The notes beneath the pieces are model-generated. The model saw only the letters and a program-made list of their open reading frames with translations, did not search any database and was not told the origin of the DNA. A DNA stretch of 64,000 nt from Bradyrhizobium sp. CCBAU 53338 (GTDB taxonomy: Bacteria; Pseudomonadota; Alphaproteobacteria; Rhizobiales; Xanthobacteraceae), in assembly GCF_015291665.1 (NCBI RefSeq), contig NZ_CP030048.1, positions 4,402,001 to 4,466,000 of the forward strand. The letters are read 5' to 3'. A program made the translations under genes and the position numbers. Below are positions 32,403-43,300 of this stretch, piece by piece. How positions within the stretch are numbered: position 1 is the first letter of the stretch; the number at the start of each line of letters is the position of its first letter.

Positions 32403-33295
32403 TCAAAATCGAGCGCAAGCCGCCAATACCGACCCACTCGACGATTCCGTGATCATCAAGGTCTCGCCGGTCCGATCCAGCGCCACGTTGGTGCAGGTCT
32501 GCCCGGTGCATGATTTGATCCGTGCGATGCACTCCCCGTTCGGCGCCAGCACGAAGACATGGCCAAGCGAGGCATGCGCAACGAACAGGCGCCCGGCGCG
32601 ATCCATTGTAAGCCCATCCGGCCCGCTGGTGCCGAAGAACGAGGCGACGCGCCCGACCTTGGCGACGCCGCCGTCGCGCATCAGCGGCACGCGCCAGACG
32701 CTGTTGTCGCGCGTCATCGCGACGAACAGCACCGCCTCATCCGGGCTCAACACAAGCCCGTTCGGGCTTGGCCCGTTCGCGATCAGGCAGTCGAGACGGC
32801 CGTCCGCGCGCAAGCGAAACACCCGGCCGCTCGGATCATGCAGCCCGGTCTGGCCCTGATCGGTGAAATAGACATCGCCGTTCGAGGCGATGTGCAGGTC
32901 GTTGCAGCCTTTGAAGGACTCCGAGTTGCGATGCGCCAGGATTGGCCTGATCGTGCCGCGTCCGGGATCGAGCTCCATGATGCCTTCATGTAATCTGCCA
33001 CGAGAATGCGGCCGTCCGGCGCGATCTTCAGGCCGTTCGGCCATCCCCGGTATTCCGTGATCAGAGACCATGTCCCCTCGGGCGCAATCCGGAAGATGCG
33101 GCCGAACGGAATGTCGACGACGTACAGATTGCCATTCGCATCGAAGGCCGGCCCTTCGATGAAACTGTCGACGGGATGGCCGCCGCGGTTGGCATCGGCC
33201 CAGTCCGAGCGAACGCCGGTGCGACGAAATTCCGCCGGCATCGCCGAAAAGACGCGGCTCTCAAGCCGCCGCGGCGGCGTGTCGAGATACATCAT
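32403..33295 (-). pseudogene. SMP-30/gluconolactonase-like gene with a frameshift
   Basis: Two overlapping frames together encode a complete six-bladed SMP-30-type lactonase of about 297 residues. Frame one, from ATG 33295, gives PVDSFIEGPAFDANGNLYVVDI up to ILVADY; frame two continues as HEGIMELDPGRG, FKGCNDLHIASNG, SPNGLVLSPDE and SGPDGLTMDRAG to the TAG at 32403. A single base is missing near 32990, within TACATGAAG. The start overlaps the stop of the citryl-CoA-lyase-like gene (ATGA), so it belongs to that operon. It may be a pseudogene or a sequencing error. Family members hydrolyse sugar or organic-acid lactones. Confidence 0.8.
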
Positions 33296-34122
33296 GGCCG
33301 TTCGCCGAGCGCGCGGTGCGGCTGCCCCTCATATTTGTAGGCGAACTGCTTCGGCATCGGCCCCTTGTTGCGGTCCTTGCGTCCGGTCTGCTCCCAGGCG
33401 TGCGCGAGAATGCCGACCGCGCGCGACAGGCAGAACACGCCTCGCGCCAGCGGCGGCGCAAAGCCGAGTTCGCCATAGATGACGGCGGTGGCACCGTCGA
33501 TGTTCATCGGGATCAGCTTGCCCTTGCGCGCCTGCATGACGCGCTCGATCGCGCGAGCTGCTGCGGCGTAACGGCCACCGACGTTGCCCTCGGTCGCGGC
33601 AGCATCCACCAGCGCGAGCAGCGGTGCGGCACGCGGGTCGACCGGATGAAAGCGATGGCCGAAGCCCGGCAGATATTTGCTGCGGGTCGCGGTGAAATGG
33701 TCAATGGCCGCGCCAGCCGCTGCATCGATGTCCTCAGTTTCGCTTCGCCGCAACACGTCGTCATAGAGCTCGACCGCCTGCTCGCCGGCGCCGCCATGGA
33801 CGTCGTCGAGCGTGTTGATGGCGGAGGCCATCGCGCCATTGAGCGGCAGGCCGCAGCTCACCGCCATCTGGGCGATCGCAATCGACGGCGCATGCGGGCC
33901 ATGATCGACGGAGGCGACCAGCGCGGCCTGAAGCAATCGTTCCTGCGCCGCCGTTGGCAACTCCCCGCGCAGCATCAGCCAGATCATCGCCGGAAAGGAG
34001 ATCCGGCCGATCAGGGCCTGGATCGGATAGCCCCGATAGGCAATGCGCCCAGGCGCGATATCGCAGATCGACGTCCGCCACCAATGCGCGGCCGCTTCCC
34101 GCAATGCGGTTTCATCGCTCAT
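33292..34122 (-). CDS. Citryl-CoA lyase-like protein (short citrate synthase family)
   Basis: A 276-residue member of the citrate synthase superfamily, much shorter than housekeeping citrate synthase (about 430). It keeps the active-site regions: DDVHGGAGEQ (His), LPGFGHRFHPVDPRA (His/Arg) and the Asp in PMNIDGATA. Short members act as C-C lyases on citryl-CoA or related 3-hydroxy-3-carboxyacyl-CoA thioesters. It overlaps the CoA-transferase gene by 11 bases and the lactonase gene by 4, so it is embedded in an operon. The CoA-transferase upstream supports a CoA-thioester substrate, not identified. Confidence 0.82.
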   Translation of the reverse strand: MSDETALREAAAHWWRTSICDIAPGRIAYRGYPIQALIGRISFPAMIWLMLRGELPTAAQERLLQAALVASVDHGPHAPSIAIAQMAVSCGLPLNGAMASAINTLDDVHGGAGEQAVELYDDVLRRSETEDIDAAAGAAIDHFTATRSKYLPGFGHRFHPVDPRAAPLLALVDAAATEGNVGGRYAAAARAIERVMQARKGKLIPMNIDGATAVIYGELGFAPPLARGVFCLSRAVGILAHAWEQTGRKDRNKGPMPKQFAYKYEGQPHRALGERP

Positions 34123-35356
34123 GGTGCCCCCCAGCGGCTTGCTCTACCTTCTTTCCTGCGACCGCTCCGCTCGCCACGAGCTGGGCGATGGCCGCCGCGG
34201 AGTAGCCGAGTTGCGCGAGCCAGCCTTCGGTGTCGGCGCCGAGCTCGGGCGGCAACGTCGGCACCGGAAACTCCTCGCCGAGCCGGAAGCCCGGCCGCGT
34301 GATCCGCAGCGGTTTTCCCTCGTCCGGATCTGCCGGCAATGCTTCGACAAATCGACGCTCGAGCAACTGCGGCTGGGTGAGGATTTGCGGCACCGTCAGC
34401 ACGCAGCCTGCAGGCACGCCGGCCGCGTTGAGCTCGCGCTCCCAATCCTCCGCCGCCTTCGCGCCCAGCGCATCGTTCAGCGCTATGTTCAGGGCCGCGC
34501 GGTTGGCCTTGCGCGTCTCGCGTCTGGCGAAGCGTGGATCGGTCGCGAGCTCGGGCCGGCCGACCAGATCGCACAAAGTCTGAAACTGCTTCTGCTCGTT
34601 GGCTGCGATGTTGAGCGGCCCCGTCGCGGTCCTGAACGTGCCGGAGGGCGCGGCGGTGAAGTTCTCGTTGCCCATCGGCTCCGGTTCGACGCCGGCGTTG
34701 AGGTGGTTGGAAACCACCCAGCCCATCGCAGCGACGGTGGCTTCCAGCAGCGACACGTCGATGAAGCGGCCGCGGCCGGTTTGCCGCTGATCGACCAGCG
34801 CAGAACTGATGGCAAAGGCCGCGGTCAGCCCGGCGATGGTATCGGAGATCGGAAATCCCGTGCGCAGCGGCGCGGATTGCGCATCGCCCGTCACGCTCAT
34901 CGCACCCGACAGGCCCTGCACGATCTGGTCATAGGCCGGCCTCTTCGCCCATGGCCCGGTCTGGCCGAAGCCCGAGATCGCGCAATAGACCAGCCGCGGA
35001 TTGTGCCGGCTCAGCACGTCATAACCGAGGCCGAGCCGCTCCATCACCTTGGGTCGAAAATTCTCCAGAACGACGTCTGCCTTGGCGACGAAGCGCAGGA
35101 ACACCTCCCTCCCCGCCTCCGACTTCAGATCGAGCGCAACCGATTGCTTGCCGGCGTTGACGGCGACGAAGGACAGGCCCTGGAGCCGCTCCGCCCGCTT
35201 CGGGTCGGCGCCGAGGCGTCGCGCCAGGTCACCGCCATCAGGTTTCTCGATCTTGATCACCTCGGCGCCGAGGCGCGCGAGATGGTAGCCGCAGAACGGA
35301 CCCGCCAGCACGTTGGACAGGTCGAGGACGCGGATGCCGGTGAGCGGCAAGGACAT
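34112..35356 (-). CDS. CaiB/BaiF-family (class III) CoA-transferase
   Basis: A 414-residue class III CoA-transferase: GIRVLDLSNVLAGPFCGYHLARLGAEVIKIEKP at the N-terminus, LENFRPKVMERLGLGYD, and FGQTGPWAKRPAYDQIVQGLSG containing the catalytic Asp that forms the glutamyl/aspartyl-CoA intermediate. It transfers CoA between carboxylic acids. It lies between the ABC importer genes and the citryl-CoA-lyase-like gene in one minus-strand operon, suggesting that it activates the imported acid before C-C cleavage. The acceptor acid is unknown. Confidence 0.9.
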   Translation of the reverse strand: MSLPLTGIRVLDLSNVLAGPFCGYHLARLGAEVIKIEKPDGGDLARRLGADPKRAERLQGLSFVAVNAGKQSVALDLKSEAGREVFLRFVAKADVVLENFRPKVMERLGLGYDVLSRHNPRLVYCAISGFGQTGPWAKRPAYDQIVQGLSGAMSVTGDAQSAPLRTGFPISDTIAGLTAAFAISSALVDQRQTGRGRFIDVSLLEATVAAMGWVVSNHLNAGVEPEPMGNENFTAAPSGTFRTATGPLNIAANEQKQFQTLCDLVGRPELATDPRFARRETRKANRAALNIALNDALGAKAAEDWERELNAAGVPAGCVLTVPQILTQPQLLERRFVEALPADPDEGKPLRITRPGFRLGEEFPVPTLPPELGADTEGWLAQLGYSAAAIAQLVASGAVAGKKVEQAAGGHHER

Positions 35357-35368
35357 TCCGGTTGCCCC

Positions 35369-36391
35369 TTACTTCAGTAACTCGGCAGCGCGCTCGGCGA
35401 AGCGGTTGGTGAAGGTCTTGGTGAGGTCGATCTTGGCGGCCGCGATCTTGGGATCGTAGTCGCTCAGGACTGCGAGCGGGACCTTGGCGGCTTCGGCGTC
35501 CATCTGGCCGGTCTGCGAGAACAGCGCCTTCGAGGCCTTCATGATCTCGATGTTCACGTCGCGATTGTCGGTCTTGTAGCCGGCAGGGATCGCATCGACG
35601 AGCTGCTCGGTCGGGACCGAGTTGATCCAGCGGTGCGTCTTCAGGAAGGCGTTGACGAGACGCTGCACCGTCTCCGGATTCTTGTCGATGAACGACTGCT
35701 GGAGATAGAGGCAGGCTGTCGGATAGATGCCGCCGAAGGCCTGCTTCGAGCCCTCGATCGTGCGCGCGTCGAACAGCGGCGCCGCGGAGCCCTTGCGTGC
35801 CAAGAGCGTCGCGACCGGATCGAAATAGACGAGCGCGTCGATGTTCTTGGCTTCGAGCGCGACCATGCCCGGCGCGCCGCTGCCGACCGCGATGATGTTG
35901 ACGTCGCGCGGCCCGAGCCCGGCCTTCTTGATGTAGTAGCGCGCCATGGTGTCGGTCGACGAGCCGGGCGCCGTAATGCCGAGCTTGAGCCCCTTCAGGT
36001 CGGCTCCGGTCTTGACCTTGTCGGCGAGATCGTTGCGCACGCCAAGCAGCACGCCTGGAATGTCGTTGAGCAGGAACACGCAGGAGATCTCCTTGCCTTG
36101 CGCCTGCATCTGGATCGTGTGGTCGTAGAAGCCGACGGTGCCGTCGACCGAACCGCCGATCAGCGCCTGGAGTGCCTTCGAGCCGCCGGCCTGGAAATTC
36201 TCGACGGTGACGTCGAGCCCCTCCTCCTTGAACATGCCGAGCTTCACGCCGAGCTCGAGCGGCATGTAGTTGAGGATCTGGGAGCCGACGGCGATCTTGA
36301 GCTTCGCCGTTTCGGGTTCGCCGGCCTGCGCGGACAGGACGGAAAGACAGATCGCCGATGTGGCCAGGATCAGCCGGGTGAAAACGCGCAT
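35369..36391 (-). CDS. ABC transporter substrate-binding protein (SsuA/NMT1-like)
   Basis: A 340-residue periplasmic protein with a signal peptide ending LSAQA, then the NMT1/SsuA-type fold: KIAVGSQILNYMPLELGVKLGMFKEEGLDV, GGSVDGTVGFYDH, ITAPGSSTDTMARYYIKKAGL and a C-terminal RFAERAAELLK. Relatives bind taurine, alkanesulfonates, pyrimidine precursors or aromatic acids. The ATG at 36391 has a GGAGG site. It is the third gene of the operon after ATPase and permease. The ligand is predicted to be an organic acid handled by the downstream enzymes. Confidence 0.9.
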   Translation of the reverse strand: MRVFTRLILATSAICLSVLSAQAGEPETAKLKIAVGSQILNYMPLELGVKLGMFKEEGLDVTVENFQAGGSKALQALIGGSVDGTVGFYDHTIQMQAQGKEISCVFLLNDIPGVLLGVRNDLADKVKTGADLKGLKLGITAPGSSTDTMARYYIKKAGLGPRDVNIIAVGSGAPGMVALEAKNIDALVYFDPVATLLARKGSAAPLFDARTIEGSKQAFGGIYPTACLYLQQSFIDKNPETVQRLVNAFLKTHRWINSVPTEQLVDAIPAGYKTDNRDVNIEIMKASKALFSQTGQMDAEAAKVPLAVLSDYDPKIAAAKIDLTKTFTNRFAERAAELLK

Positions 36392-36421
36392 GCGAACCTC
36401 CATGATTATCTCGTTGTTCAA

Positions 36422-37195
36422 TCAGACTTCGTGGGCCGGCGCGGGACGCCACACCAGGAGCCGTTTCTCGGCGCGATCGACCAGCGCATCGAGGGCGACG
36501 ACGAAGGCGGACAGCACGATGATGCCGGCGAACACACCGGCGGCATCGAGCACGCCCTCGGCCTGGGCAATCAGGTGACCGAGCCCGGCCGACGAGCCGA
36601 GATACTCGGCGACCACCGCGCCCATCACGGCCATGCCGACGGAGACCCGCAAGCTCGACAAGATCCAGGTCGTGGCCGACGGCAGGTAGACGTGGCGCAG
36701 CAAGGACCATTTGGACGCGCGCAGCAGGCGGGCATTGGCGAGCACCACCGGGTTAACCTCGCGCACGCCCTGGAAGGTGTTGAAGAAGGCGACGAACAGC
36801 ACCAGCGTGACGCCCAGCGCCACCTTCGAGGTCAGGCCGAGGCCGAACCAGATCACGAAGATCGGTCCGAGCAGAATGCGCGGGATGGCGTTGAACATCT
36901 TGATGAAGGGCTGCACGACCTCGGCCGCAAACGGGCTCAGGCCGAGCCATATTCCAAGCGTGGTGCCGATCGCGATCCCCGCCGCGAAGGACAGGATCGT
37001 CTCCAGCAGCGTGACGCCTACATCGGTCCAGAAATCCGCGGTCGACATCCATTCGCCGATCCGCGCCACCAGCGTCGATGGCGCCGGAAAGAAGAACGGG
37101 TCGATCAGTCCTGCCCGCACGCCGGCTTCCCAGACCAGGAGCAGACTCAGCACGATCGCGACCTGAACGAGAACGACCTTACCCTTGCGGGGCAT
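36422..37195 (-). CDS. ABC transporter permease (SsuC/TauC-like)
   Basis: A 257-residue inner-membrane permease with about six hydrophobic helices and the EAA loop (VLANARLLRASKWSLLRHVYLPSA) characteristic of BPD-type importers. The ATG at 37195 with GGAGAAG upstream overlaps the ATPase gene by 17 bases. An in-frame extension to 37258 lies inside the ATPase coding region and is unlikely to be used. It works with the flanking ATPase and binding protein. Confidence 0.92.
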   Translation of the reverse strand: MPRKGKVVLVQVAIVLSLLLVWEAGVRAGLIDPFFFPAPSTLVARIGEWMSTADFWTDVGVTLLETILSFAAGIAIGTTLGIWLGLSPFAAEVVQPFIKMFNAIPRILLGPIFVIWFGLGLTSKVALGVTLVLFVAFFNTFQGVREVNPVVLANARLLRASKWSLLRHVYLPSATTWILSSLRVSVGMAVMGAVVAEYLGSSAGLGHLIAQAEGVLDAAGVFAGIIVLSAFVVALDALVDRAEKRLLVWRPAPAHEV

Positions 37196-37970
37196 AGCTC
37201 TTCTCCACTTCGGCGCCGAGCAGCGACCAGATCTGACGATAGAGTGCGACGAATTCATCCGTAGTCTGGAGCGCGGATACGTCGCGCGGGCGTGGCAGCG
37301 TGATCGGGACGTCCCCGACCATGCGACTGCCCGGTCCCGCCGACATCACCACGACACGGTCGGCGAGCGTGATCGCCTCGTCGAGATCGTGGGTGATGAA
37401 GATCAGGGAGCGCCGCTCCGCCTGCCAGAGATCGAGCAGGATGCGGTGCATCAGCCGGCGGGTGTGCACGTCGAGCGCCGAAAACGGCTCGTCCATCAGG
37501 ACGATCCTCGGCTCCATGATCAGGGTCTGGGCCATCGCCACGCGCTTGCGCTGGCCGCCCGACAACTGATGCGGATACCGCTCCTCAAAACCCTTCAGGC
37601 CGACCTTGGCGAGCCAGGGGCGCGCCTGCGCCCGCGCCTCTTCGACCGATTTGCCCTGAAATACGAGGCCGAGCCCGACATTGTCCTGCGCGGTCTTCCA
37701 CGGCAGCAGGCCCTCCTGCTGGAGCATGTAACCGGACTGGTCGTTCAGGCCCGTGAGCGGCTTGCCGAAGATGCAGACATCCCCGGCGGCTGGCTTCAGC
37801 AATCCTGTGACGGTGTTGAGAATGGTCGACTTGCCACAGCCGGTCGGCCCGACCACAGCGACGAACTCGGCCTCGCCGACCTGGAGGTTCATGCTTTTGA
37901 CGGCGGTGAAGTCGCCGAAGCGGATCATGACGTCGCGCAAATCGACGGCCGAGGCCGGCTGCCCTTCCAT
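37179..37970 (-). CDS. ABC transporter ATPase (SsuB/TauB-like)
   Basis: A 263-residue ATPase with Walker A GPTGCGKST at 41-49, the Q-loop in YMLQQEGLLPWK, the signature LSGGQRKRVAMAQ near residue 138, Walker B IVLMDEPFSALD and the H-loop ITHDLDEA. It is the first gene of a minus-strand operon that continues with permease, binding protein, CoA-transferase, citrate-synthase-like lyase and lactonase. A palindrome lies just before its start codon and the IclR regulator is divergent. Confidence 0.93.
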   Translation of the reverse strand: MEGQPASAVDLRDVMIRFGDFTAVKSMNLQVGEAEFVAVVGPTGCGKSTILNTVTGLLKPAAGDVCIFGKPLTGLNDQSGYMLQQEGLLPWKTAQDNVGLGLVFQGKSVEEARAQARPWLAKVGLKGFEERYPHQLSGGQRKRVAMAQTLIMEPRIVLMDEPFSALDVHTRRLMHRILLDLWQAERRSLIFITHDLDEAITLADRVVVMSAGPGSRMVGDVPITLPRPRDVSALQTTDEFVALYRQIWSLLGAEVEKSYAPQG

Positions 37971-37982
37971 TGTTTCGCTCCG

Positions 37983-37996
37983 TAGAACCAGTTCTA
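37983..37996. promoter_or_regulatory. Candidate IclR operator at the ABC operon
   Basis: TAGAAC-CA-GTTCTA, a perfect 6-2-6 palindrome 12 bases before the first codon of the ABC ATPase. It shares the GTTCT/AGAAC half-site with the palindrome at 38104-38120 and with ACAGAACCTGT at 38050-38060. Confidence 0.6.
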
Positions 37997-38103
37997 TTAA
38001 TCGAAACCCGTAGCCCGACGCGCCACTTGAGTCAAATTAATTTCACCAAACAGAACCTGTGTGTCGGCCTTTTTATCGACTTCTGAGTGTCTCCGTGATA
38101 TTT

Positions 38104-38120
38104 GTTCTGTCTGACAGAAC
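38104..38120. promoter_or_regulatory. Candidate IclR autoregulatory operator
   Basis: GTTCTGT-CTG-ACAGAAC, a perfect 7-3-7 palindrome ending 10 bases before the IclR start codon and next to its Shine-Dalgarno sequence. It is well placed for repression. A shorter form, ACAGAACCTGT, lies at 38050-38060. Confidence 0.7.
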
Positions 38121-38130
38121 AGGAGCAGAG

Positions 38131-38820
38131 ATGGTCAAGACAGGGGTTGATGCGGTGGCGCGGGCGCTGGCGATCCTCAAGGCCTTTGGGCCGGAGCGCA
38201 GCGCCATGACGCTGACCGAGATCGCCGAGGCGACCGATCTCTACAAGAGCACGGTGCTTCGCCTCGCCGCGACGCTGGAGAGCGACGGCTTTCTTGTCCG
38301 CGGCGCGGACCGGCTGTTCCACCCCGGGCCAGAACTCTGGCGCCTCGGTGCGCTCTATCAGCGCGGCCTTGATCTCGGTGACCTCGTGAGACCGACGCTG
38401 CATCGCCTGGTCGAAGCGACCGGCGAGACGGCTTCGTTCTACATTGCCGACGGTGACGAGCGCATCTGCCTCTACCGGGTCAACTCCCCGCGCTCCGTCC
38501 GGCATCATCTCGACGAGGGCCAGCGACTGCCGATCGATCGCGGCGCCGCCGGTCGCGTGCTCACTGCCTATCGCGATCCCGCGTCGGCCGAAGCCAGGAA
38601 AATCCGCGAGCGCGGGTTCTACGTATCGCTCGGCGAACGTGATCCCGAGGTCGCCGCTGCCGCAGTCCCCGTGATCGATGTCCAGGGCAAGCTGCGCGGC
38701 GCCTTGTCAGTGTCCGCGATCCGGACCCGCTTCGACGCAGAGGCGCGCAAGGCCGCCGTCGACGTCCTGACTAACGAGGCCAAAGCCCTGAGCGGTCTGC
38801 TGCCCGCCGGCGAGCGCTGA
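38131..38820 (+). CDS. IclR-family transcriptional regulator
   Basis: A 229-residue regulator with an N-terminal winged helix (VARALAILKAFG, then MTLTEIAEATDLYKSTVLRLAATLESDGFL) and a C-terminal IclR ligand-binding domain (ICLYRVNSPRSVRHHLDEGQRLPIDRGAAGRVLTAY, then VPVIDVQGKLRGALSVSAIRTRF). IclR members bind small organic acids. The ATG at 38131 has AGGAG upstream. It is divergent from the ABC/CoA-lyase operon, with palindromes at both promoters, so it probably controls that operon and itself. Confidence 0.93.
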   Translation: MVKTGVDAVARALAILKAFGPERSAMTLTEIAEATDLYKSTVLRLAATLESDGFLVRGADRLFHPGPELWRLGALYQRGLDLGDLVRPTLHRLVEATGETASFYIADGDERICLYRVNSPRSVRHHLDEGQRLPIDRGAAGRVLTAYRDPASAEARKIRERGFYVSLGERDPEVAAAAVPVIDVQGKLRGALSVSAIRTRFDAEARKAAVDVLTNEAKALSGLLPAGER

Positions 38821-39284: not shown

Positions 39285-40136
39285 ATGCCCTTCAAATTCA
39301 TCCACATCACCGACACGCATCTGGCGAACCCCGGGCTGAAGCTCTATGGCCTCGATCCGCGCGCCCGGCTGGACGCGGCCGTTGCCGACATCAACAAGCA
39401 CCAGTCGGATGCGGCGTTTGCGGTCGTGACCGGCGACCTCACCCATTGGGGCGAGCCTGAATCCTACGCCAACTTCGCCGAGGCGATGGCCGCGCTGAAA
39501 ATGCCGTACATCGCCATGGTCGGCAATCACGACAAGCGCGTGGCCTGCCTCGACGGCCTCAAGGCCGCGCCGCGCGATCCCAACGGCTTCGTGCAGGGCA
39601 CCCGCACCACCGAGCACGGCCTGTTCGTCTTCCTCGACACGCTGGACGAGACCAGCCATGCTGGCGAGATGTGCGCCAGGCGCTTCGACTGGCTGGCGAA
39701 GACGCTGGCCGCCGCGCCGGCCGACCAGCCGTTCGTCGTCTTCATGCATCATCCGCCCTTCCCGGTCGGCGTGCACGCCATGGACGAGATCGCGCTGAAG
39801 CAGAGCGCCGAATTCGCCGAGGTGATCGCGCCCTATCGCGCGCGCATCCGCCATCTCTTCTTCGGCCATGTGCACCGGCCGATCTTCGGCAGCTACGGCA
39901 AGATCCCGTTCTCGACGCTGCGCGGCACCAACCACCAGGTCTGGTTCGAGCTCGACGCCAACCCCGCCGACCATCTGGCGAGCCACGAGCCGCCCGCCTA
40001 TGGCGTGGTGCTGATCGACGACGAAAACCTCGTCGTGCACAGCCACGACTTCCTCGACACCAGCCTGCGCTTCCCGTTCGAGCCTCCCGCCGGCGTGGAC
40101 GGCCGCGACTATGCGCTCAATTTCCCGGCGCGATGA
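39285..40136 (+). CDS. Calcineurin-like phosphodiesterase (GpdQ/CpdA family)
   Basis: A 283-residue dinuclear metallophosphoesterase: ITDTHL near residue 8, VVTGDLTHWG, MVGNHDKR, MHHPPFP and GHVHRP provide the Asp, Asn and His metal ligands in the usual order. Close families hydrolyse glycerophosphodiesters or cyclic nucleotides. The next gene, an Ugp-like permease, begins two bases after its stop, and a binding protein follows, so it most likely processes phosphodiesters taken up by this importer. No signal peptide is present, so it acts in the cytoplasm. Confidence 0.9.
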   Translation: MPFKFIHITDTHLANPGLKLYGLDPRARLDAAVADINKHQSDAAFAVVTGDLTHWGEPESYANFAEAMAALKMPYIAMVGNHDKRVACLDGLKAAPRDPNGFVQGTRTTEHGLFVFLDTLDETSHAGEMCARRFDWLAKTLAAAPADQPFVVFMHHPPFPVGVHAMDEIALKQSAEFAEVIAPYRARIRHLFFGHVHRPIFGSYGKIPFSTLRGTNHQVWFELDANPADHLASHEPPAYGVVLIDDENLVVHSHDFLDTSLRFPFEPPAGVDGRDYALNFPAR

Positions 40137-40137
40137 C

Positions 40138-41088
40138 ATGAGCCTCGCAGAACCCGCGGCTCTTCCGGTCGCGGCATCCGCGCCGCCGCGCCTGCGCGTC
40201 GCAAAGCGGTTCACCAGCCGCCTCAAAGCCTCGCTGCCGGCCTATCTGCTGTTGCTGCCCTCGTTGATCTTCCTTGCGCTGTTCACCTATGGCGCGATGG
40301 GACGGGTGCTGATCGATGCGCTCTATCAGCGCGCCACGCCGAAGGCGCCGCTTCGCTTCGTCGGCCTCGAGAACATCGGCGCCGTGTTGGGCGATCCCGC
40401 CTTCACCGGCGCCGTCGTCAACAACCTCATCTACGCCGTCGGCACCGCGATCCCCAGCATCGGCCTTGCGCTCCTGTTCGCGCTGGCACTCGCGCGCACC
40501 AATGTGGTCACCAGCGCGCTGCGCGCCGCGTTGTTCCTGCCGGTGCTGATCCCGATGGTGGCTGCGTCCGCGCTATTCCTGTTCATCTTCCTGCCCAATG
40601 TCGGCCTGCTCGACCACTATATCGGAGGCCTGCTGCCGGTGCTGCCGAACTGGCTCGGCGATCCCGACATCGCGCTCTACGCGATCATGATCATCACCAT
40701 CTGGAAGAACGCCGGCTATTACATGCTGTTCTTCCTGGCCGGCCTCCAGGCCGTGCCGGAGGACGTGATGGAGGCGGCGCATCTCGACGGCGCCGGTCCC
40801 TTCATGCGACTGCGCTACATCATCCTGCCGGAGCTCAAGCCGACCTTCCTGTTCGTCATCGTGATCGCCACGCTGAACGCGGTCACGCAGGTCGACCACG
40901 TCTTCGTCCTCACTCAAGGCGGTCCGTCGAACTCCACGAATCTCGTGCTGTTCTACATCTACCAGCAGGCGGTCGAGCATTTCGACGTCGGCAAGGCCTC
41001 GGCCGCGACGCTGCTGACGCTCGCAGCGCTGATGGCTCTCACCGCGCTCTCGTTCCGGACCATGGCGAACCGGGAGGGCGGGCCATGA
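40138..41088 (+). CDS. ABC transporter permease (UgpA/MalF-like)
   Basis: A 316-residue permease with about six transmembrane helices and the EAA loop (VMEAAHLDGAGPFMRLRYIILPELKP). The first 35 residues are cytoplasmic and basic at the end. The ATG at 40138 lies two bases after the phosphodiesterase stop. It overlaps the next permease by four bases (ATGA). It resembles UgpA, the glycerol-3-phosphate importer permease, but sugar-transporting relatives cannot be excluded. Confidence 0.92.
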   Translation: MSLAEPAALPVAASAPPRLRVAKRFTSRLKASLPAYLLLLPSLIFLALFTYGAMGRVLIDALYQRATPKAPLRFVGLENIGAVLGDPAFTGAVVNNLIYAVGTAIPSIGLALLFALALARTNVVTSALRAALFLPVLIPMVAASALFLFIFLPNVGLLDHYIGGLLPVLPNWLGDPDIALYAIMIITIWKNAGYYMLFFLAGLQAVPEDVMEAAHLDGAGPFMRLRYIILPELKPTFLFVIVIATLNAVTQVDHVFVLTQGGPSNSTNLVLFYIYQQAVEHFDVGKASAATLLTLAALMALTALSFRTMANREGGP

Positions 41089-41954
41089 AGCTGATCGACG
41101 CGCTCTACAAGGACGCCCCGCTCGCCACCCGCAACGAGATCACGCCGAAGCTCGGCTTCCTGCTGACGATCCTGCTCGCACTCGCCTGGCTGATCCCGTT
41201 CCTGTGGATGGGCGTCGCGACCCTGCGACCGTCCTCCGACGGCATCAATTTGATGGCCGAGCTGATGCCGAGCCTGAAGCCGACGCTCGACAATATCAGG
41301 GATGCCTGGGAGATCGGCGATTTCCCGCGCTACTTCCTCAACACCACGATCATCTGCACGGGCATCCTGCTGGTGCAGTTCGTCACGATCACCCTTGCGG
41401 GTTTTGCCTTTGCGCGGCTCGACTTCGCCGGCAAGACACCGATCTTCTATCTGTTCCTGATGCAGCTGATGCTGGTGCCGGTGCTGCTGATCGTGCCGAA
41501 CCTGAGCCTGGTGGTCCAGCTCGGCCTCTACGACACGCTCGCCGGCGTGATGATGCCGTTCTTCGCCTCGGCCTTCGGCACCTTCCTGATGCGCCAGGCC
41601 TTCGAGGCGATTCCGACCGAGCTGGAAGACGCCGCGCTGATCGATGGCGCGAGCCTGATCCAGCGCATCCGCCACATCTACGTGCCGCTGTCGCTGCCGA
41701 GCTTCTCGGCCTTCGCCATCATCTCGGTCACCAGCCACTGGAACGACTTCCTTTGGCCGCTGATGGTGATCAATTCGCCGGACAAGCGGCCGCTCACCGT
41801 CGGGCTCTCGGTCTTCACCAAGACCGCGGAAGGCACGCAGGACTGGGGCACCATCGCCGCCGGCACGCTGATGGTGATCGCACCGCTGCTCGTCACGTTC
41901 CTCATTTTCCAGAAGCGCTTCATCAGCTCTTTCGTCACCTCAGGCATCAAATAG
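41085..41954 (+). CDS. ABC transporter permease (UgpE/MalG-like)
   Basis: A 289-residue second permease of a CUT1-type importer, with six helices and the EAA loop (ELEDAALIDGASLIQRIRHIYVPLSLPS). The start overlaps the previous stop as ATGA, which indicates translational coupling. It pairs with the 40138 permease. No ATPase gene is in the cluster. Confidence 0.93.
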   Translation: MKLIDALYKDAPLATRNEITPKLGFLLTILLALAWLIPFLWMGVATLRPSSDGINLMAELMPSLKPTLDNIRDAWEIGDFPRYFLNTTIICTGILLVQFVTITLAGFAFARLDFAGKTPIFYLFLMQLMLVPVLLIVPNLSLVVQLGLYDTLAGVMMPFFASAFGTFLMRQAFEAIPTELEDAALIDGASLIQRIRHIYVPLSLPSFSAFAIISVTSHWNDFLWPLMVINSPDKRPLTVGLSVFTKTAEGTQDWGTIAAGTLMVIAPLLVTFLIFQKRFISSFVTSGIK

Positions 41955-41965
41955 GAGATTTATCG

Positions 41966-43300
41966 ATGCTGTTCTCCCGCAGGCTCATGCTTGGCCTCGC
42001 CATGGCAGGCTCCATGGCAGGCGCCCTCGCCTTACCGGCTCACGCCGGTGAAGGTCCGACCGAGATCGACCTGTTCTTCCCCGTGCCCGTCGACGGCAAG
42101 CTCGCCCGCGACATGGGCACGCTGATCAAGGAGTTCAACGACGGTCACCCCGACATCAAGGCGACCGCGGTCTACACCGGCTCCTATGACGACACGCTGA
42201 TCAAGACGCGCGCCTCGATCAAGGCCGGCAAGCCGCCGGCGGCCGTGATCATGTCGGCCAACTTCCTGCTCGACATGCAGATCGAGAACGAACTGACCAA
42301 TCTCGATCCGTTGATCAAGGCGGACGGCAGCACCAAGGAGCAGTTTCTTGGCCAGTTCTTTCCGGCGCTGAGCGGCAATGCGGTGATCAATCGCTCGGTC
42401 TATGGCGTCCCGTTCCAGAATTCGACGCCGTTGCTCTACATCAACGCCGACAAGGCCAAGGAAGCCGGCCTCGATCCGAACAAGCCGCCGCAGACCTGGG
42501 CCGAGCTCACCGACTGGGCCAAGAAGCTCACCAAGCGCGAGGGCGACAAGGTGACCCAATGGGGCATCGCGATCCCCTGCGCCTATGACTATTGCGGCTG
42601 GATGATGGAAACGCTCACCATGACCAATGGCGGGCGCTACTACAACGAGGAGTTCGGCGGCGAGGTCTACTACGATACGCCCTCGATGCTCGGCGCGCTG
42701 ACCTGGTGGAGCGACCTCGTGAGCAAGCACAAGGTCCACCCACCCGGCGCCACGCCCGGTCCCGCGGTCAGCACCTCCTTCATTTCCGGCAACGCGGCGA
42801 TGATGATGCTGTCGACGGGCTCGCTGACCTATGTGCGTGAGAACGCCAAGTTCAACTACAAGGTCGCGTTCATCCCGCGCAACGTCCGCAACGCCGTGCC
42901 GATCGGTGGCGCCTCGCTGATCATTCCGGCGGGCGTCGAGGCCGACAAGCAGAAGGCCGCCTGGACGCTGATCAAGTGGATGACCTCGCCGGAAAAGAGC
43001 GCCTGGTGGAGCCGCGCCACGGGTTACTTCGCGCCCAACATGGCCGCCTACAAGACGCCCGACATGGTCGACTTCCTCAACAAGAACCCGGACGCGAAGA
43101 TCGCCGTCGAGCAGCTCGACGTCGCCAAGCCCTGGTTCGCGACCTACAAGACCGTACCGGTCCGCAAGAACCTCGAGGACGAGGTGATGCTGGTGCTGAA
43201 CGGCAAGAAGCAGCCGAAGGAAGCCCTCGTCGCCGCCCAGAAGGCCGCCGACGAGACGCTCAAGCCGTACAACGCCGAGACCTCGCTGAAGCTGCCGTAA
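41966..43300 (+). CDS. ABC transporter substrate-binding protein (UgpB-like)
   Basis: A 444-residue periplasmic binding protein with a signal peptide (about residues 1-26, ending AHA) and the CUT1 fold: IDLFFPVPVDGKLARDMGTLIKEFNDGHPDIK, VPFQNSTPLLYINADKAKEAGLDP, and WTLIKWMTSPEKSAWWSRATGYFAPN. These segments recall glycerol-3-phosphate-binding UgpB. The ATG at 41966 has GGAG 8 bases upstream. It is last in the operon and is followed by a terminator hairpin. The ligand is likely a glycerophosphodiester or glycerol-3-phosphate, given the linked phosphodiesterase. Confidence 0.92.
   Translation: MLFSRRLMLGLAMAGSMAGALALPAHAGEGPTEIDLFFPVPVDGKLARDMGTLIKEFNDGHPDIKATAVYTGSYDDTLIKTRASIKAGKPPAAVIMSANFLLDMQIENELTNLDPLIKADGSTKEQFLGQFFPALSGNAVINRSVYGVPFQNSTPLLYINADKAKEAGLDPNKPPQTWAELTDWAKKLTKREGDKVTQWGIAIPCAYDYCGWMMETLTMTNGGRYYNEEFGGEVYYDTPSMLGALTWWSDLVSKHKVHPPGATPGPAVSTSFISGNAAMMMLSTGSLTYVRENAKFNYKVAFIPRNVRNAVPIGGASLIIPAGVEADKQKAAWTLIKWMTSPEKSAWWSRATGYFAPNMAAYKTPDMVDFLNKNPDAKIAVEQLDVAKPWFATYKTVPVRKNLEDEVMLVLNGKKQPKEALVAAQKAADETLKPYNAETSLKLP

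Follow-up and report, generated by a model that had tools for sequence, protein, structure and literature searches.

Which acid might Bradyrhizobium sp. CCBAU 53338 break down with an operon in which a family III CoA-transferase is joined to a short citrate-synthase-like lyase? We addressed this in a window of 64,000 nucleotides (the whole stretch of DNA analysed, whose positions are used below) and in relatives that carry the lyase. Open reading frames and profile matches place six genes on the minus strand and a divergent IclR-family gene on the plus strand:

32403..33295, minus strand: SMP-30/gluconolactonase-type lactonase with a frameshift near 32981-32987 (its 3' part matches PF08450)
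33292..34122, minus strand: short citrate-synthase-family lyase of the citryl-CoA-lyase type, 276 aa (NF004864, PF00285)
34112..35356, minus strand: CaiB/BaiF (family III) CoA-transferase (PF02515, 410 bits, residues 5-376)
35369..36391, minus strand: periplasmic binding protein, NMT1/THI5-like (PF13379, 84 bits)
36422..37195, minus strand: ABC importer permease (PF00528, 93 bits)
37179..37970, minus strand: ABC importer ATPase, NitT/TauT type (PF00005, 108 bits)
37983..37996, no strand: palindrome TAGAACtgGTTCTA, directly ahead of the ATPase gene that opens the operon (seen in a palindrome search and an alignment of 14 intergenic regions)
38030..38057, minus strand: half site GGTTCTG with a -35-like box, TTGACT, downstream of it (the same alignment shows the core letters kept)
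38103..38121, no strand: perfect 9+1+9 palindrome TGTTCTGTCtGACAGAACA, immediately before the regulator gene (alignment and palindrome search)
38131..38820, plus strand: IclR-family regulator (PF09339 and PF01614), kept with the operon in relatives

Gene content and regulation

The permease start overlaps the ATPase stop, the lyase start overlaps the transferase, and the lactonase start at 33295 joins the lyase stop through an ATGA overlap. Each operon gene has a Pfam match over the cut-off (the lactonase through its 3' part), dN/dS against four relatives lies between 0.050 and 0.223 for the five operon genes other than the lactonase and for the regulator, and the same gene order is found again in relatives. 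By these signs the operon members look like real genes, in agreement with the original prediction of six minus-strand genes with overlapping or close junctions. The IclR gene that it named is also there, on the plus strand and divergent from the operon; its reading frame opens at a GTG at 38059, but the likelier start is the ATG at 38131. From the intergenic alignment, the palindrome at 38103..38121 is likely an IclR operator and that at 37983..37996 likely a second one, to both of which the regulator would bind, and the half site and TTGACT box have a putative regulatory function.

For the lactonase a correction is needed, since it does not form a single reading frame. In a relative with an uninterrupted gene (L006, 297 aa), residues 1-105 match window positions 33295-32981 and residues 104-297 match 32987-32406 in another frame; the SMP-30 (SGL) reading frame is thus not intact in the window. 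The gene is in one frame in L006, L013, L020, and L153-L156, whereas 25 of the 37 genomes that carry this ABC-type operon, the window's genome included, have it broken or lack it. Of 125 lyase loci, 22 have a lactonase gene, whether intact or damaged, as the next gene behind the lyase, and these belong to two unrelated families (15 SMP-30, 7 amidohydrolase).

The transferase and lyase

The lyase matches the NCBI family named citryl-CoA lyase (NF004864, 442 bits, cut-off 261) and PF00285 (131 bits), and this family has at least 8000 members (all 8000 candidates scored match at E 0.001). Its nearest solved relative in sequence and fold is 6hxp, the citryl-CoA lyase of Hydrogenobacter thermophilus, which ranks first in Foldseek (E 5e-13, 31% identity in the fold alignment) for a model built from 18 sequences with a mean pLDDT of 74. 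Residues H74, H109, H156, R157, R164, and D209 are present in 126 of 126 aligned rows and R234 in 125; by analogy with citrate synthase, H109, H156, and D209 would be catalytic, and R157, R164, and R234 would bind carboxylate, which the R234 position helps to hold in citrate synthase. At the spacing of what we take to be the third carboxylate-binding arginine of pig citrate synthase (Arg 421), the lyase has, by eye count, Gly254, with R251 and K253 nearby. These lie in a conserved R-x-K-G-P at 251-255, and the stretch around Gly254 is poorly modelled (residues 248-267 under pLDDT 50). In the transferase, Asp172, presumably the catalytic aspartate known from formyl-CoA transferase, is kept in 111 of 111 aligned rows.

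A transferase lies within 8 kb of the lyase in 111 of the 125 loci. The other 14 include nine with a SauS-like acylating aldehyde dehydrogenase and five with neither (in L049 and L069 a transferase is present slightly outside the 8-kb limit), and the two partners occur together within that distance in 0 of 125 loci. Since the partner is a transferase or an acylating aldehyde dehydrogenase, never both within 8 kb, the lyase would act on an acyl-CoA derived from either an acid or an aldehyde. Judged from these loci, the transferase and lyase form a portable pair. The locus set contains two loci twice (L006 = L152 and L038 = L159), and its neighbour labels are blast matches to a small panel; a simple gene caller missed the lyase in 30 of the 125 loci, so residue, pairing, and lactonase counts were taken from tblastn. 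The lyase was found in 42 of 146 genomes of the window's genus and 25 of 385 of its class, and in 3 of 369 genomes of Pectobacterium's class (all three at E 1e-60) and 1 of 60 of its family (E 1e-40). The set of close relatives comprises the best 80 of at least 353. Gene families, catalytic residues, and conserved pairing support the predicted import, CaiB-type CoA activation, and citryl-CoA-lyase-type cleavage of a 3-hydroxy-3-carboxyacyl-CoA.

The conserved lyase residues cannot tell oxaloacetate from 2-oxoglutarate. Most oxaloacetate-pocket residues are kept, and NCBI and most named relatives use the label citryl-CoA lyase or citrate synthase, as would be expected if the acid were citrate or a C6 relative (hydroxycitrate, or an aconitate- or tricarballylate-derived acid) that an aerobe converts by CoA transfer to acetyl-CoA and oxaloacetate. 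Tct-type and DASS importers adjoining the pair in some relatives point the same way, as does a TcuA-like flavoprotein encoded in operons of Azospirillum and Agrobacterium (the L119 protein scores 358 bits, under the cut-off of 369). There is nevertheless little reason to expect plain citrate in an aerobe whose cycle is complete, which can route it through aconitase. Two genomes, both also with a canonical aconitase, encode a divergent aconitase paralogue next to the lyase or its partner; with citrate as the acid, the split would seem superfluous. A citrate-type substrate would also leave the duplicate 2-oxoglutarate dehydrogenase and ring-opening genes described below without account, and we regard it as unlikely.

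The importer

The ATPase, permease, and NMT1-type binding protein together fit a NitT/TauT-type ABC importer. The best NCBIfam model of the ATPase is a taurine ATPase (205 bits, under the cut-off of 357), none of the importer genes reaches the cut-off of a single NCBIfam equivalog, and the closest solved chain to the binding protein, 3qsl, is named simply putative exported protein. Importer types beside the pair differ widely between loci; an MFS importer in L018 is nearest to aromatic-acid symporters (175 bits, below the cut-off of 419). Such variety could mean that the pair is tuned in each host lineage to a larger plant 2-substituted malate (eucomic or piscidic acid, isopropylmalate), but the tested pocket positions are identical in all gene contexts, a poor fit with differing bulky products, and this explanation is decidedly improbable. 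Among the 37 ABC-type genomes, transferase and lyase are intact in 14 of the 14 with a damaged importer. Uptake to support growth is thus apparently not the purpose in every case, and the module could instead run towards synthesis or clear away an inhibitor resembling citrate. That role is very improbable: the importers, lactonases, and 2-oxoglutarate dehydrogenase found in operons suit breakdown, and CoA transfer would probably offer little drive for synthesis.

Neighbouring genes and the candidate substrate

Each substrate clue from neighbouring genes rests on few loci. The operon of Pectobacterium aroidearum (L055) comprises regulator, transferase, lyase, and DASS importer, then the E1, E2, and E3 genes of 2-oxoglutarate dehydrogenase, with an E1 that is an additional copy in that genome (1145 vs 1565 bits); this is the one locus of 125 with that complex beside the pair. 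SDH-, AroD-, and QuiC-like genes stand beside transferase, lyase, and a thiamine diphosphate (ThDP) enzyme in some loci, and the ThDP enzyme, closest to acetolactate synthase, is present in 6 of 6 loci with a DSD-like match and 5 of 5 with an AroD-like match. The lyase of L151 is surrounded by SauS-like and ThDP genes, a dehydrogenase of the IolG-like kind, and a pair of AP_endonuc_2 barrels of which one is fused, with a QuiC-like protein at 407 bits (cut-off 1200). These genes would point to a C7 precursor, since inositol-type chemistry on quinate would yield the homocitrate skeleton.

These neighbours (2-oxoglutarate dehydrogenase, aconitase, ring-opening genes, and lactonases) favour homocitrate or its lactone. 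With confidence somewhat short of even, we read the operon as a catabolic unit under IclR control whose substrate is a 2-substituted malate, with homocitrate as the likeliest one, joined by its lactone where the lactonase works. In the proposed direction, the ABC importer would take the acid into the cell, the lactonase would open homocitrate lactone, and the transferase would move CoA, probably from succinyl-CoA, onto the CH2-COOH arm. Retro-Claisen cleavage by the lyase would then give acetyl-CoA and a 2-oxoacid, 2-oxoglutarate if the carbon chain is that of homocitrate, from which 2-oxoglutarate dehydrogenase could remake succinyl-CoA. The 3-hydroxy-3-carboxyacyl-CoA type named in the original prediction is supported, while the gene context of relatives points to a C7 acid absent from its list.

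One of its own guesses, citramalate, belongs with the small 2-alkylmalates (also itatartarate or its lactone, 2-hydroxyparaconate) that would yield acetyl-CoA and pyruvate or hydroxypyruvate. The P. aeruginosa itaconate cluster includes a 2-hydroxyparaconate lactonase, according to PMC9875883, an earlier case of a lactonase that accompanies a CoA route. Itaconate itself fits poorly because the required hydratase is not among the six genes, though none would be needed if citramalate or itatartarate were imported. The near-invariant carboxylate-holding R234 argues against so small a substrate, which would again leave the 2-oxoglutarate dehydrogenase and ring-opening neighbours unexplained, and we consider it doubtful.

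A broader version of the homocitrate reading, also unlikely, is that the pair completes an undescribed, non-aromatising route for quinate/shikimate-type cyclitol carboxylates, the Bradyrhizobium ABC form serving uptake and breakdown of homocitrate or its lactone. Dehydrogenation, inositol-like dehydration to a 1,2-dione, and ThDP-dependent opening would give homocitrate semialdehyde, which a SauS-like enzyme, or an aldehyde dehydrogenase with the transferase, would convert to homocitryl-CoA for cleavage to acetyl-CoA and 2-oxoglutarate. The QuiC-like protein of the alphaproteobacterial operons carries an HPPD-like domain, which slightly lowers the odds of this route because it leaves an oxygenase step possible. 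The ring-opening enzyme has no close counterpart in the window genome (36% identity at best), a point against the homocitrate reading as a whole.

Two other readings were considered. Decarboxylation of a protocatechuate ring-cleavage product to citrate semialdehyde was lowered, there being no Lig-type genes in the alphaproteobacterial operons, but it keeps some probability because of that HPPD-like domain and because nine of ten genomes with ring-opening clusters or the 2-oxoglutarate dehydrogenase operon have at least one dioxygenase match (intradiol 7, LigB 8). A sulfonate substrate, in line with the TauABC-like importer and SauS-like gene, lost ground with a tested ThDP enzyme that is not Xsc (309 bits, cut-off 620) and with the carboxylate-type arginines kept in the lyase.

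Relation to nitrogen fixation

Homocitrate, a C7 acid, is the organic part of the nitrogenase cofactor. The window strain has nifH (460.8 bits) and no nifV over the cut-off among the matches listed, down to about 322 bits, in favour of homocitrate, but its nifH lies on the other contig, which counts against it. Under the broader, unlikely reading above, such a strain would meet plant-made homocitrate through the ABC form. The importer is intact in 15 of 16 genomes with nifV missing or broken vs 8 of 21 with nifV intact (Fisher 0.0006, rows related). On the tree the importer state changes once, so this complementarity is not independent evidence. Among the matches listed, nifV frameshifts occur in 8 of 33 nifV-bearing operon carriers vs 0 of 47 nifV-bearing non-carriers (Fisher 0.0005, rows related), a comparison in which shorter nifV remnants of non-carriers would escape the 322-bit limit. 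Frames were confirmed in nine nifV copies, and seven of the eight frameshift genomes belong to one operon clade. These p values are too small because the rows are related and two loci are duplicated. Many lyase carriers (Cupriavidus, Ralstonia, and others) are presumably mostly not diazotrophs, which speaks against homocitrate.

Comparison with known systems

In the literature searched, mostly without full texts, no description of the pathway was found, nor any activity, ligand, or growth data on a member; the papers that came up include some that mention both lyase and transferase, such as PMC2864759. The term uncharacterised therefore suits the pathway within that literature, but not the lyase family, already named by NCBI. 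That large family bears the name citryl-CoA lyase though citrate would be a strange substrate beside the partners it usually has. Should homocitrate be the acid, the operon would break down the organic part of the nitrogenase cofactor by a route that we did not find in the literature searched, and the lyase would be a citrate-synthase-type enzyme acting on a homocitrate-type substrate. The binding protein and importer would then be a candidate for homocitrate import into rhizobia; for the symbiosome membrane, a 2014 paper (PMC4266029) gives the homocitrate transporter as not identified, in passages on the plant side.

Some relatives' loci share SDH-, AroD-, and QuiC-like genes with the quinate/shikimate pathway to protocatechuate, but to our knowledge the classical route has no CoA-transferase, ThDP enzyme, or lyase. 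Others resemble myo-inositol catabolism (IolG, IolE, IolD) in that the lyase is flanked by AP_endonuc_2 barrels, a ThDP enzyme, and a dehydrogenase of the IolG-like or MocA type; such genes are absent from the window operon, the relatives' ThDP enzyme is acetolactate-synthase-like, and the substrate would be of the quinate type. The itaconate cluster of Pseudomonas and Cupriavidus (Ict, Ich, Ccl) likewise activates its acid with a CoA-transferase and cleaves a 3-hydroxy-3-carboxyacyl-CoA, yielding acetyl-CoA and a 2-oxoacid. It differs in using a hydratase, of which Pfam and NCBIfam find none among the six genes, and its lyase is of another family, CitE-like. Closest are the Hydrogenobacter citryl-CoA lyase and the citryl-CoA-lyase module of ATP-citrate lyase, which are likewise short and of citrate-synthase type and share the His/His/Asp and several Arg positions. 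In Hydrogenobacter the partner is citryl-CoA synthetase, whereas the lyases studied here stand with an acylating aldehyde dehydrogenase or a CoA-transferase of CaiB type, and they differ also in the conserved R-x-K-G-P.

Operon structure and control region

The genes originally predicted to form an IclR-controlled import and degradation operon lie as follows, with the IclR gene encoded opposite them and facing the six minus-strand genes.

37970 to 32403, minus strand: six-gene operon, in the order ABC ATPase, permease, NMT1-type binding protein, CaiB-type CoA-transferase, short citrate-synthase-type lyase, SMP-30 lactonase
38103-38121 and 37983-37996: perfect palindromes, two of the recurring motifs of the control region

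Judged by its closest lyase proteins and loci, the window is Bradyrhizobium-like. The transferase and lyase genes overlap, and the lyase/lactonase junction shares an ATGA. Compared with four relatives, dN/dS spans 0.050-0.223 in the regulator and the operon's five unbroken genes; the two parts of the lactonase give 0.079-0.305. These values indicate that all have recently been under selection. The six-gene operon is real, and the transferase-lyase pair is a conserved module. The lactonase expected at the operon end is in place behind the lyase, but its reading frame is broken in this strain by a frameshift near 32981-32987; relatives hold one-frame copies.

Three motifs recur in 14 aligned regulator-operon gaps (the window and 13 loci): GTTCT...AGAAC close to where the regulator begins, a TCT half site with TTGAC after it, and AGAA...GTTCT close to the first operon gene. 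We infer that IclR binds these conserved motifs. Judged by eye from translations, window positions 39285-43300 encode a calcineurin-like phosphodiesterase and then a glycerol-phosphate/sugar-type ABC importer, apparently unrelated to the operon.

Transferase and lyase enzymes

The lyase scores 181 bits above the cut-off of the NCBI equivalog model for citryl-CoA lyase. Its nearest solved relative in sequence and fold is the Hydrogenobacter citryl-CoA lyase (6hxp), followed by fold by the lyase modules of ATP-citrate lyase (predicted model, mean pLDDT 74; residues 248-267 unresolved). The model match and nearest fold support the predicted cleavage by a short citrate-synthase-family lyase. Across 126 aligned lyases H74, H109, H156, R157, R164, and D209 are invariant, R234 differs in one, and R251-x-K253-G254-P255 is kept in 124-125 rows. 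From a by-eye count, we take H74, H109, H156, R164, D209, and R234 to match citrate-synthase residues 238, 274, 320, 329, 375, and 401; by the same count, no lyase arginine has the spacing of citrate-synthase R421, with R251 and K253 close by. Transferase Asp172 is present in 111/111 rows. The mechanism is very probably CoA transfer and then retro-Claisen cleavage, with acetyl-CoA and a 2-oxoacid as products, and homocitrate is tentatively proposed as the operon's substrate. A literature search, with most subscription journals outside its reach, found no earlier description of the pathway.

A portable pair with changing neighbours

Among the best 80 of at least 353 relatives, the lyase cluster is found in 80/80 and the transferase cluster in 77/80 loci. 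Adding 7 plasmid and 38 further loci gave a set of 125, two being counted twice; 111 of these have a transferase on the lyase strand no more than 8 kb away, and in 99 it scores >200 bits and lies no more than 2.5 kb from the lyase. The importer type around the pair differs between host lineages:

NitT/TauT ABC: Bradyrhizobium, Bosea, Ralstonia
MFS: Paraburkholderia, Caballeronia, Pandoraea
TctC-type receptors: Cupriavidus
TctA with TctC: Halomonas
TctCBA: Ruegeria
DASS: Methylobacterium nodulans, some Bradyrhizobium, Pectobacterium
Liv-type ABC: Azospirillum

A lactonase-like gene, intact or not, is immediately 3' of the lyase in 22 of the 125 loci (15 SMP-30 and 7 amidohydrolase-2); the amidohydrolase of locus L117 is closest to L-fuconolactonase, far below the cut-off (76 bits vs 400).

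An acylating aldehyde dehydrogenase of SauS-like type is encoded near the lyase in nine loci, all of them lacking a transferase within 8 kb (Fisher 1e-10, a value that is too small, as the rows are related); L049 and L069 do have a transferase, a little past that distance. Five other loci have neither gene nearby. The acyl-CoA for the lyase would thus come from either enzyme, the transferase using the acid and the SauS-like enzyme the aldehyde. Since 7/9 SauS-like loci also contain a ThDP enzyme, aldehyde and ThDP steps probably precede the lyase.

A possible association with nitrogen fixation genes

Among 146 genomes from the window's genus, 42 have the lyase and 72 have nifV over the cut-off. 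Eight more genomes have frameshifted nifV (nine copies with frames checked, several sites), and the lyase is present in every one of the eight (hypergeometric 3e-5); these copies, L164-L172, are broken at differing sites. Among the matches listed, which go down to about 322 bits, nifV, intact or broken, is commoner in lyase carriers (33/42) than in non-carriers (47/104). The two genes are about 350 kb or less apart in 14/16 carriers with both on one contig (for G104, using the nearer of two lyases). Importer state was compared in the 42 carriers less five: G043, G017, G041, and G140, with another operon type, and G080, at a contig end. An intact importer is seen in 8/21 carriers with intact nifV, 7/8 with broken nifV, and 8/8 without nifV over the cut-off. 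On the operon tree, however, importer decay maps to one change, and 7/8 genomes with broken nifV belong to a single clade, so the association is only suggestive. The window's genome, the one searched for nifH, lacks nifV over the cut-off and has nifH on a different contig from the operon.

G000:C2:231753-232574: nifH of the window's genome

Downstream neighbours

In Pectobacterium aroidearum (L055), regulator, transferase, lyase, and DASS genes are followed by E1, E2, and E3 of the 2-oxoglutarate dehydrogenase complex, with a canonical E1 elsewhere in the genome.

L055:11449-16946: second complete 2-oxoglutarate dehydrogenase complex, directly 3' of the transferase-lyase-DASS operon

This arrangement, seen in 1/125 loci, fits 2-oxoglutarate as the lyase product and succinyl-CoA as the CoA donor. 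A divergent aconitase paralogue is in the operon of G041 (Bradyrhizobium-genus, 890 bits) and Aurantimonas G966 (1070 bits), both with a canonical aconitase elsewhere (1360 and 1363 bits), and acnA lies near the lyase locus in Agrobacterium larrymoorei. It can be argued that citrate would not need splitting, since aconitase is at hand. A TcuA-like flavoprotein accompanies aldehyde dehydrogenase, lyase, and transferase at two Azospirillum, one Agrobacterium, and one Bradyrhizobium-genus locus; its profile score, on L119 alone, is 358 bits (cut-off 369).

Upstream neighbours and a possible route from quinate

Azoarcus KH32C: IclR, HPPD-like, QuiC-type TIM barrel, transferase, lyase, ThDP enzyme, SDH-like (161 bits, cut-off 252), AroD (210 bits, cut-off 139)
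L151: Gfo/Idh/MocA dehydrogenase, TRAP importer, QuiC-like fusion, lyase, AP_endonuc_2 barrel, SauS-like, ThDP enzyme

Two Aromatoleum genomes have almost the Azoarcus order, one also with an aldehyde dehydrogenase. Across the 125 loci the ThDP enzyme accompanies 6/6 DSD-like, 5/5 AroD-like, 5/6 SDH-like, and 6/7 VOC matches, and a DSD-like match is absent in 9 of the 15 loci with the ThDP enzyme. This enzyme is acetolactate-synthase-like, and its reaction is therefore not fixed by homology. With an inositol-type reaction sequence applied to quinate, this compound would be dehydrogenated to 3-dehydroquinate, which would lose its C5 hydroxyl to give a 3,4-dione; hydrolytic C3-C4 opening and then oxidation would yield 3-carboxy-3-hydroxyadipate, which is homocitrate.

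In Steroidobacter agaridevorans (L045:11648-18620), carboxylesterase and BD-FAE-type esterase genes, which look as if suited to quinate esters such as chlorogenate, adjoin ALDH-transferase-lyase-ThDP genes; a QuiC-like gene by the same cluster scores 610 bits (cut-off 1200). The lyase operons of L151, L148, L141, and L138 have SauS-like, ThDP, and AP_endonuc_2 genes, with a MocA-type dehydrogenase in L151, L141, and L138 and TRAP and QuiC-like genes in L151, L141, and probably L148; each is possibly a self-contained quinate-type pathway. In L151 the TRAP importer is recognised from DctP by profile and from two other components by size and place, the QuiC-like fusion includes an HPPD-like domain, and the Gfo/Idh/MocA dehydrogenase is IolG-like below the cut-off (139 bits vs 355). 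The L151 gene set resembles the dehydrogenase, dehydratase, and ThDP ring opener sequence of myo-inositol catabolism.
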